This document shows positions 50,301 through 56,300 of a stretch of DNA of 64,000 nucleotides, in pieces; position 1 is the first letter of the stretch, and the number at the start of each line of letters is the position of its first letter. The notes beneath the pieces were generated by a model. That model saw only the letters and a list, made by a program, of their open reading frames with translations, searched no databases and was not told the DNA's origin. A program made the translations under genes and the position numbers. Source of the stretch: Lampris incognitus. Taxonomy: Eukaryota; Chordata; Actinopteri; Lampriformes; Lampridae. The stretch lies in NCBI RefSeq assembly GCF_029633865.1, contig NC_079224.1, forward strand, positions 19,123,126-19,187,125. The letters are read 5' to 3'.

Positions 50301-53300
50301 ATACCGTTACCACTGTATATTCTATATATATAATATTATATTTCTATTACAATATATTTATATATATATATGTATATAGAGAGAGAGAGAGGGAGAGAGA
50401 GAGAGAGAGAGAGAGAGAGAGAGAGAGAGAGATGTATATGTATGTATTATTCATATACATGTATGTACACTACCGTTCAAAAGTTTGGGATCACCCAAAC
50501 AATTTCGTGTTTTCCATGAAAAGTCACACTTATTCACCACCATATGTTGTGAAATGAATAGAAAATAGAGTCAAGACATTGACAAGGTTAGAAATAATGA
50601 TTTGTATTTGAAATAAGATTTTTTTACATCAAACTTTGCTTTCGTCAAAGAATCCTCCATTTGCAGCAATTACAGCATTGCAGACCTTTGGCATTCTAGC
50701 TGTTAATTTGTTGAGGTAATCTGGAGAAATTGCACCCCACGCTTCCAGAAGCAGCTCCCACAAGTTGGATTGGTTGGATGGGCACTTCTTTGAGCAGATT
50801 GAGTTTCTGGAGCATCACATTTGTGGGGTCAATTAAACGCTCAAAATGGCCAGAAAAAGAGAACTTTCATCTGAAACTCGACAGTCTATTCTTGTTCTTA
50901 GAAATGAAGGCTATTCCATGCGAGAAATTGCTAAGAAATTGAAGATTTCCTACACCGGTGTGTACTACTCCCTTCAGAGGACAGCACAAACAGGCTCTAA
51001 CAGGTACTATTTAATGAAGATGCCAGTTGGGGACCTGTGAGGCATCTGTTTCTCAAACTAGAGACTCTAATGTACTTATCTTCTTGCTCAGTTGTGCAAC
51101 GCGGCCTCCCACTTCTTTTTCTACTCTGGTTAGAGCCTGTTTGTGCTGTCCTCTGAAGGGAGTAGTACACACCGGTGTAGGAAATCTTCAATTTCTTAGC
51201 AATTTCTCGCATGGAATAGCCTTCATTTCTAAGAACAAGAATAGACTGTCGAGTTTCAGATGAAAGTTCTCTTTTTCTGGCCATTTTGGGCGTTTAATTG
51301 ACCCCACAAATGTGATGCTCCAGAAACTCAATCTGCTCAAAGAAGTGCCCATCCAACCAATCCAACTTGTGGGAGCTGCTTCTGGAAGCGTGGGGTGCAA
51401 TTTCTCCAGATTACCTCAACAAATTAACAGCTAGAATGCCAAAGGTCTACAATGCTGTAATTGCTGCAAATGGAGGATTCTTTGACGAAAGCAAAGTTTG
51501 ATGTAAAAAAAATCTTATTTCAAATACAAATCATTATTTCTAACCTTGTCAATGTCTTGACTCTATTTTCTATTCATTTCACAACATATGGTGGTGAATA
51601 AGTGTGACTTTTCATGGAAAACACAAAATTGTTTGGGTGATCCCAAACTTTTGAACGGTAGTGTATGTATATATATATATATAATATTCTGGATATATTG
51701 ATGAACTTTTGTGGGTGATGTCTGAAATATGTGATTTTTTTTTCTTTCTTACTAACGAGTTGTGTGTTTCTTTTCTGTTTTCCCCGCAGACTTTTATAGT
51801 ACTTAACAAAGGGAAGGCCATCTTCCGATTCAGTGCCACGTCTGCGCTTTATATTTTCTCCCAATTTCACTTCATCAGAACAATCGCCATAAAGGTTCTG
51901 GTGCATTCATATCCTTTCAGACGTCTACCACAGGACGTTGTCGGAGCCGTTATGCGCCACAATCACAGCCGCATGCAACACATAACGTGATACATGGTCA
52001 TACTAAAGGTTACGTAAAAATAATGGTGTCATTTATTGTGGGAAGCAAGCCAAGTTGGTCATTCTTTGTCACTATTAAATCACATCCTGTGTCACTTTAA
52101 TGCATTTGCTGATGAATAACCATTCATTGAATTAGGGATAATGCAATAGTGTCTCATCACCATCATCGGGGGGAAAAAAAGAGACTTGAGGAAAGATTGT
52201 AATTATAAGAAGAGTTCTTTTTTAATTTTGTATAGATAGTATTAAGGGTTATGGTTTACACAAGGTTGGATATTGTTAATCAGCTATTTAGGTATGGCCT
52301 TGCTTTTGTTGTGGACAAATTTCAAGTGACATTTTTTTGCGTGCTATCAGCTCAGCATTTATGATAGCATGGAGAACTGACTGCGCGTGAGGAGAGCTCA
52401 CCGGAAAGAAAAACCCTCTGAAAAAGTTCCTCGCGAGGTCCAAATTTTAGGCCATCATAAAGTGCTGAAGCCCCTCCCTCCATCCCACAATGTCAGATAA
52501 GCCAATTTATAATATTTACCGATCCCCCCCTACCCCCCTTTAGGACTCTATTGGATTTTTCCGTAGTCCCATTTCTGAAACAGTCTTTGTAATGTTCCTC
52601 CCTGGCATCGGAAACCCAATCCCCTGACATCCCTCTTTTAATCTCCAAAATGAAATAAGAGCAAGGAGATTTTACATCATGTGATGGCTGCCTATTAGTT
52701 CTCAGACAGCCTGCATGTCCTTTGCATGCAGGAGGGAATCTATCTCTCTCTATATATCCATCTACTATATCTCTTTTATGATATTGATTACAAAGCTGCT
52801 GGTATGGGACACTTGTGCTTTTGTCAGACATTAAACATGGAGTTATTATCCTCCACGATCCTCTGCAACAGGAGGAAAAATAAAGTGAATGCTTAAGCTG
52901 TTCCCATGTGAACTACATTTGAGTTTGTCATCCAAAAGCCGCATGTTTATTTTGGAATACAGCCATTGTTTGAAGTTTTATTATTATTATTCTGTGCAAT
53001 TCAACATGTCCAAACTAACAAGCTTTGGGAACCGAGTCCTTCGGTGACCTGCTCAGAAAGTACCGTCATCTCCATTTATTTTCTGCTATTAGTCCCTGTT
53101 TAAGAGCAGGTCACTTTTCTTGGATTGGTTAAACTTAATTTGAAATGAAAGCCCCCCCCCTTTTTTTAAGGTCCCCTTGCTGTAGTAATGGATGGTACAT
53201 TTTGAAGAGGACCCACCTAAATGGAGGGACAGGAGTTATGAACCTGTTCCACTGATCTCAGACTTTAACATGACACCACATGCCAAGAAAGGGACCGGTT

Positions 53301-56300
53301 CACGACAGAAGGAACAAATAGAAAATGATAATGGAAAATGAAATTATCAAGTAATGATTAAGGTAGACTGCTGTGACATTAGCACATTTTCCCATCACAT
53401 TTTGTGTTGTTGTCAATCATGATAACCATTTCAGCTCTCCGTCTCATGAAACTTGGTGCTTTTGTTTCATTCGTCCGTAGACATTAGCTGAATGATATCA
53501 TTATCCTACCTCGCTGTTGAACAGCATTTGCTGTTGCTTATCTTTATGATTGTCCATAATCTTTGCTTATTTGTAATGCCTTTGGCATGCACGGACCTCT
53601 TTTGCCGTCATTATATCTCCATGTTTATTCCCACTGAAAGCAGTTAAGGCTGCTTCCCCCCTGCCCTTTCTTTTGTGTGCTTTGATTTGTCTCTAACTAA
53701 ATGTATTTGATATTTCACAAAGCACTTTCCTTAACACTTTTCACATTGTTCAGCCTGTTCATAATGTGCACTATACTGACCAACTGTTGTTTCATGGCGA
53801 TGTCTGATCCAGCGCCATGGACCAAGTACCTAGAGTAAGTATGCAGTTTACCTCTCATCCGTTGTCAGGTCATTAAATAAATCTCAAGGCTAAAAATTTA
53901 AACTGTGCTACGTTTGTTCCAATGTTGAGCCCTGCCAGGGTTTGTTGCTTTGTCAGTCGTGATTGGAGAGTCATTTGGCATGTAAGTATATGAGGCACGT
54001 AATACTTACTGCATTCAGAATGGTACATGATGGATGTAGAGAAAGCATGTGGTGTGGTATGAAATTATTCATGGCTGCCTCAGAAGCTTCAAAAGCATTA
54101 CACTGTCCCACTGACAGTAATACATGTCAAGGCCAAGCTTTTTTTATTATTATGATTCATAGCTGTTCTGTAGCATGCACCATGCCATCTGCATTGCAAA
54201 AGAGAAAGCCTTTAACTTGCTCAAACCTGCTCCTGGACTGGTGGAAGTTCAGTGTTTATGGTTGTCATGTGTAATGGGCCGGAAACGAGAACTACTCTTC
54301 CATCAGATTTCATCAACTTAGCCATTCAGGGGCGTCTGGGTAGCGTAGCGGTCTAGGTCTATTCTGTTGCCTACCAACACGGGGATCGCCGGTTCGAATC
54401 CCGGTGTTACCTCTGGCTTGGTCAGGCGTCCCTACAGACACAATTGGCCGTGTCTGCGGGTGGGAAGCCGGATGTGGGTATGTGTCCTGTTCGCTGCACT
54501 AGAGTCTCTTCTGGTTGGGGGAGGGGGAACTGGGGGGAATAGCATGATTTTCCCATGCGCTACATCCCCCCTGGTGAAACTCCCCACTGTCAGGTGAAAA
54601 GAAGCGGCTGGTGACGCCACATGTATCGGAGGAGGCATGTGGTAGTCTGCAGCCCTCCTCGGATCAGCAGAGGGGGTGGAGCAGCGACCGGGACGGCTTG
54701 GAAAATATGGTAATTGGCCAAGTTGAATTGGAGCGAAAAAGGGGGAAAAAAATCCCCCTCCCACCCCCCCAAAAAAAAAAAACTTAGCCATTCAGGGCAA
54801 TAACTGAATAGCATCTTCAAGGACACAGCTTGTTCACACCTCGCAGTTTACCAACTCAGTTGATGGGTAATCAGGCCAGTTGGGATTGATTTAGCTCAGC
54901 TCGACTGGGCAGTAAAAAGGCCAAAACTTACAGTGCATGTCATGTCAACTACCAATTGTAGTAGGCATAAAGAAAAATATCATTTGTAGGTAGACTTTCA
55001 GAAAAAAATCCCATCTTAACTGATTAGATTATTAAAGTAATGCACAGTATGGTGTTTTCATACTCTAACCAGGTATCGTGTTCATGGAAACACCACGGCA
55101 AAGTGAGGCTTGATTGTTACTTTTGATAAATTTGTTGAAAAAAAAATTGAATACACTTTTGGTTTCTTCTGTTCCCTCTAAACTTTACGTGATACGCTTT
55201 CACAAACCTGTGGCATCCTATGCAAGTTCCTCTAAAAGATGCTAAATCTATGTAAATGTGCAGGCATATTGTACTTTGTGTCCTGCAAAAGTACACAGCT
55301 GGTCTAAAACATCACTGCAGAAAGTGAATTATAGATCGCCCATTCATGAGTCAATGCCTCATCCTTTCATACCTTTTTTTTATACCAACATCAATCCTTC
55401 TTTTCATTATTGACTGTGATTGTGCTAGCTGAAATTATCAAATCATCTCTTAACTTGCACTTCTCAAATACCATTTAAATAATTGCATTTTGTATGTTTT
55501 TCGCCTTCACTAATATTTCATTAGTCGTTTATATTTTGTTTTGTTTTATTTGCAGGTATACATTCACTGGAATTTATACTTTTGAGTCGGTAATAAAGAT
55601 ATTAGCGAGAGGATTCTGTGTCGGGCCCTTCACCTTTCTGAGGGACCCATGGAACTGGTTGGACTTCACTGTCATTGTTATGGCGTGAGTATCACTTAAC
55701 CACATTTTATTGCTAAAGATATATTCATTTTTTACTTTTGTTTTGTGAAAACAGATTAGCTGCCACAAGTACACACGTATTACCAGATGACTCTCGGATA
55801 TGATGCCCACTTTCGCTGTCCATGGTGCTGAAAGACAGCCGCTGCATTACGTTTTCTGTCATTTCAAGAAGAAGAAGAAGAGGAAGAAGAAGAAGAAGAT
55901 CCATCCATCAATCCATCCATCCATCCATCCATTATCCTTCCCGCTTATCCTGCTGTCAGGGTCACGGGGATACTGGAGCCTATCCCAGCAGTCAGTTGGT
56001 GGCAGGCGGGGAGACACCCTGGATAGGCCAACAGGCCATCACACGGGGCCGACACACACACACACACACACACACACACACACACACACACACACACACA
56101 CACACACACACACACACACACACACACACACACACACACACACACACACACACACATTCATACCTAGGGACAATTTAGTATGGCCGATTCACCTGACCTA
56201 CATGTCTTTGGACTGTGGGAGGAAACTAGAGCACCCAGAGGAAACCCACGCAGACACAGGGAAGAAGAAGATGTACTTTATTAATTCCAGTGGGGAAATT

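Follow-up and report, generated by a model that had tools for sequence, protein, structure and literature searches.

A predicted U12-type AT-AC intron at a conserved position in an SCN5A-like sodium channel gene of the teleost Lampris incognitus

Kohrman et al. 1996 reportedly dealt with the AT-AC intron of Scn8a (presumably intron 2) in med and medJ mice and, as its title has it, with unusual splicing in the mutants. That intron and the one described here are both minor-class AT-AC introns of a sodium channel gene, but the paralogue and the species differ. The human voltage-gated sodium channel alpha genes are all recorded with at least one minor intron (PMC6865273), and SCN5A intron 3 and SCN4A intron 2 are classified as AT-AC type I (PMC4712308, citing Wu and Krainer 1999). 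The fish intron belongs to the same gene family and has the same AT-AC type I ends as these two. Like SCN5A intron 3, it is predicted to separate the second coding exon from the third; as SCN5A exon 1 is non-coding, it becomes number 3 in SCN5A numbering (PMC4712308). A second kind, AT-AC type II, is represented by SCN5A intron 25 and SCN4A intron 21, which also have AT-AC ends, belong to the same family and have a counterpart downstream in the fish gene. These differ from our intron in having G at +5 and in being handled by the major spliceosome, as shown for SCN4A intron 21 (PMC2831892). Vertebrate U12-type introns are described as remarkably conserved in a comparison that took in Fugu, Tetraodon and zebrafish (PMC2831892). 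Sodium channel minor introns have been in print since the 1990s, and our finding adds one more species in which this known, conserved intron is correctly annotated.

We analyzed a 64,000-nucleotide stretch of the L. incognitus genome (the window) in which a first-pass annotation had placed a complete U12-type AT-AC intron within a fish sodium channel gene. The placement proved exact to the base, and all three signals were found where that annotation had put them. We consider it about 98% probable that a teleost SCN5A-like gene has here its conserved intron of the U12 type (AT-AC type I). The intron and its signals are as follows.

51909..53744, plus strand: predicted U12-type AT-AC intron, 1,836 bases, between coding exons 2 and 3
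51909..51918, plus strand: U12-type 5' splice site ATATCCTTTC, with C at +5 and +6
53727..53735, plus strand: U12-type branch site TTCCTTAAC, branch A 10-11 bases from the intron end
53742..53744, plus strand: 3' splice site CAC, the last intron base being 53744

The consensus of U12-type AT-AC introns comprises the 5' splice site ATATCCTT and the branch site TTCCTTAAC. The fish intron has the 5' splice site, a branch site near the 3' end and a 3' AC. No second exact copy of ATATCCTTT, located at 51909-51917, occurs on either strand of the window, and TTCCTTAAC at 53727-53735 was one among 3 exact copies. The predicted branch adenosines, 53733 and 53734, are situated 11 and 10 bases ahead of the final intron base. 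Copies with one mismatch numbered 19 for ATATCCTTT and 18 for TTCCTTAAC in the window, as opposed to 21.7 and 19.7 expected from shuffles. Since loose matches are no commoner than in shuffled sequence, the weight of the donor and branch-site signals lies in their position at the exon borders and not in motif frequency. Given the positions that the exons dictate, a first-order Markov estimate put the joint chance of the two exact 9-mers at 5.1e-10. Among 20,000 random introns generated from a first-order model of the 51909-53744 intron, ATATCC occurred at base 1 in 27 and TTCCTTAAC near the end in 2, with none containing both. Two other occurrences of the donor-like motif [AG]TATCCTT on the plus strand, at 5289 and 41670, were rejected: no match to a branch site plus acceptor follows either of them before 53727.

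Seven coding exons of the channel gene were located in the window, all on the plus strand.

47360..47626, plus strand: coding exon 1 of the SCN5A-like gene, beginning with ATG and aligning with the Nav1.5 N-terminus
51790..51908, plus strand: coding exon 2, 119 bases, ending in phase 2
53745..53834, plus strand: coding exon 3, 90 bases, phase 2 to phase 2
55556..55684, plus strand: coding exon 4, 129 bases, flanked on both sides by GT-AG introns
59326..59417, plus strand: coding exon 5, 92 bases, domain I S4
59818..60060, plus strand: coding exon 6, 243 bases
60303..60366, plus strand: coding exon 7, 64 bases

Together these exons form one open frame of 334 residues with a Pfam ion transport domain. 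The signals could in principle be a chance match within a decayed gene copy, a reading for which the repeat-rich surroundings speak and nothing else does. It is extremely improbable: seven exons share one open frame across the window, more matching exons, up to domain IV, follow within the next 28 kb, and the joint chance of the signals is about 5e-10. The donor after exon 6 (gtctgc, window position 60061) is weak for a GT-AG intron, yet the frame and the next exon fit. Mammals have neonatal and adult pairs of exon 5; tblastn of the window for a second exon 5 copy gave chance-level matches only, apart from exon 5 itself.

A clean reading frame on both sides of the predicted U12-type intron had also been claimed, and exons 2 and 3, once joined, are indeed open in a single frame. 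The junction reads CAU UC|A, with a serine codon completed across it. We then considered every join with its last exonic base at 51860-51989 and its first exonic base at 53680-53799, kept those that were stop-free and in frame into exon 4 (n = 4,339), and scored them against two channel peptides. The highest score, 268.5, was common to four adjacent joins, among which 51908/53745 alone has AT-AC ends and the full ATATCCTTT donor. Another of these four, 51910/53747, gives AT-AT ends, a combination documented for minor introns (PMC8280824); such an intron would begin ATCCTTTCA, without a U12-type donor.

The first-pass annotation held that the junction cannot be solved with GT-AG rules, and this was slightly too strong. 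With two of the GT-AG joins the frame stays open, as would be required of a normal GT-AG intron whose ends lie elsewhere (for example, 51923-53722). These joins lengthen the peptide at the junction by 12 and 23 residues, however, and score 246.5 and 221.5, which is 22 and 47 below the AT-AC join; the best of six GC-AG joins scored 235.5. The 70-residue peptide spliced from exons 2 and 3 matched 31 distinct sequences of solved structures, 24 of which have an equal span over all 70 residues. Four more have an equal but shorter span, and the remaining 3 (PaFPC1 and its chimeras) differ by 2 residues. The Nav1.5 and Nav1.7 alignments (five rows shown in full) contain no gap at the exon 2/3 junction. 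An ordinary intron with shifted ends is therefore extremely unlikely, and the earlier claim comes close to being correct.

The assignment of the gene to a paralogue, which the first-pass annotation had not attempted, was examined separately. Against solved structures, exons 1-7 scored 571.9 bits with Nav1.5 and 571.5 with Nav1.7 (best 60 of 127 matches), a result that does not by itself separate these paralogues. Because this margin is tiny, the naming rests on the ranking of exons 2-3, the ranking of the linker, and WDR48. For exons 2-3 alone, the eight best of 31 rows were Nav1.5 (106.4 to 105.3 bits), followed by Nav1.1 at 100.0. In man, WDR48 is presumably head to head with the sodium channel cluster, and an open stretch with a WDR48-like exon has that arrangement here:

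24988..25431, minus strand: open stretch with a WDR48-like exon, upstream of the channel gene and head to head with it

This stretch near 25 kb matched WDR48 over 71 of 72 residues in a single stretch (approximately 171-172 bits). WDR48 occupied rows 2 to 11 among the best 60 of 579 matches, row 1 being a many-repeat WD-40 protein that summed 10 stretches. Pfam assigned the stretch to WD40-type families only, none of them WDR48-specific. With Nav1.5 the closest channel (narrowly so over exons 1-7) and WDR48 as the neighbour, the gene is predicted to be SCN5A-like. Human SCN5A and SCN10A are described as lying in one domain with EXOG, SCN11A and WDR48 (PMC6821807).

Another open stretch, at 10764-11423, has 219 codons with many P, S and E residues. 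It was considered as GORASP1, a neighbour in the human locus, but this was dropped, as there was no Pfam match; the stretch is perhaps an exon of a neighbour gene.

To follow the gene further, the next 100 kb of the same 1.48-Gb genome were used, and exons were located up to domain IV. The ends of 17 introns were read, a count that covers only part of the inter-domain linker introns: 15 were GT-AG and 2 were AT-AC. For the six introns inside the window the open joined frame served as the check, and for the linker AT-AC intron translation did, whereas the ends of the other ten downstream introns were placed by eye on the basis of protein matches and in the expectation of GT-AG. The second AT-AC intron, outside the window at L004:4978-5421, separates exons of 138 and 105 bases around the domain III-IV linker. 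It is 444 bases long, begins with ATGAGT, ends with TATAC and has G at +5; we predict it to be the gene's second, U2-type AT-AC intron. The sequence ATATCC at bases 7-12 of this intron resembles the start of a U12-type donor. SCN5A is described with AT-AC type I ends for intron 3, AT-AC type II ends for intron 25 and GT-AG ends for the rest (PMC4712308). As far as it was read, the fish gene is predicted to have the same intron arrangement. The 51909-53744 intron follows the second coding exon, where SCN5A has intron 3 (PMC4712308), and this supports the first-pass annotation, which gave the position as one known for AT-AC introns in vertebrate SCN genes. The channel protein is continuous across the junction, and the domain III-IV linker of the gene holds the predicted AT-AC intron of the U2 type.

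The class of an intron cannot be told from AT-AC ends alone: SCN4A intron 21 has such ends and needs the major spliceosome (PMC2831892). The 51909-53744 intron might accordingly be U2-type as well, like the other AT-AC intron that sodium channel genes have, an example of which lies downstream in this same gene. U2-type AT-AC introns of sodium channel genes are reported to have G at +5 in all cases (PMC2831892), and the 51909-53744 intron has C there, together with a full U12-type donor and an exact branch site. The downstream AT-AC intron differs in both respects, having G at +5 and no TTCCTTAAC in its final 80 bases, as judged by eye. A U2-type intron at 51909-53744 is hence very improbable, and the U12 type is favoured because +5 is C and an exact branch site lies 10-11 bases ahead of the end. 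The evidence for the U12-type intron consists of the signals, their positions, the open frame, agreement with the protein family, and a second, U2-type AT-AC intron at its own known place; we found no point against it.

If both of its ends are slid 4 bases, the downstream intron also reads as GT-AG, with the frame and the protein length unchanged. The slid register gives KMSGQD and the AT-AC register KLGGQD, which is present in both Nav1.5 rows with the alignment shown (2 of 70 matched sequences). Because both Nav1.5 rows read KLGGQD, the AT-AC register is favoured. It is very unlikely that the fish uses the slid register, in which case a U2-type AT-AC intron would have been caught escaping to GT-AG by sliding. 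If true, this would contradict the view that U2-type AT-AC introns are trapped (PMC2831892), and the 51909-53744 intron would stay a plain conserved U12-type intron. The same 4-base slide may be possible in mammals.

U12-type splicing depends on U11, U12, U4atac and U6atac; on introns of this type, the 5' site is recognised through base pairing by U11 and U6atac, and the branch site by U12. From this established work, we infer the spliceosome and the base pairing for the 51909-53744 intron. In the pre-mRNA, AUAUCCUU at the start of the intron would be paired first by U11 snRNA and later by U6atac snRNA, and the pairing of U12 snRNA with UUCCUUAAC would leave an adenosine bulged approximately 10 bases ahead of the 3' end. 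Exons 2 and 3 would then be joined by the minor spliceosome at CAU UC|A, and the completed serine codon would lie at the start of the first voltage-sensor helix.

Several other features of the window were recorded. A near-perfect palindrome of 1.24 kb (50445-51686) ends 103 bases ahead of exon 2. Its 383-base arms are 99% complementary, the outer arms of 181 bases 96%, and the whole length 93%; as RNA, it has a predicted fold of approximately -1038 kcal/mol. It codes for a helix-turn-helix piece like that of Tc1/Sleeping Beauty transposases, with HTH_38 above and HTH_SB below the Pfam cut-off. A repeat is present in four copies (45126-45545, 48884-49308, 54329-54780 and 57337-57755), three of which are 74-82% identical to the 54329 copy; judged by eye, it resembles a SINE of tRNA origin. 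LINE-like elements with broken reverse transcriptase frames occur at 1434-6673, 29904-32824 and 41722-42680. Pfam RVT_1 matched the two tested pieces, 31529-32335 and 41722-42363, and the other LINE-like frames were judged by eye. Rfam at gathering scores gave no match in the whole window. We also considered TTCCTTAACATGCCCAC at 62947-62963 (TTCCTTAAC followed by CAC) as the end of another U12-type intron. Three motifs of the next channel exons had no match on the plus strand of the window, and the next channel exon found after exon 7 starts at 66758. Because the search found no channel exon beyond it in the window and the next one located lies behind a GT-AG intron, this candidate was set aside.

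The practical use of the U12-type intron is as a check of automatic gene models. It is plausible that gene finders would lose or misplace exon 3, as the first-pass annotation held for those limited to GT-AG. The two in-frame GT-AG joins would plausibly mislead such a program into adding 12 or 23 surplus residues to the peptide, and GT-AG-only rules would mistranslate the start of helix S1. The locus is a clean textbook case of deep conservation, with AT-AC introns of both kinds retained in a fish SCN5A-like gene where SCN5A is described as having them.
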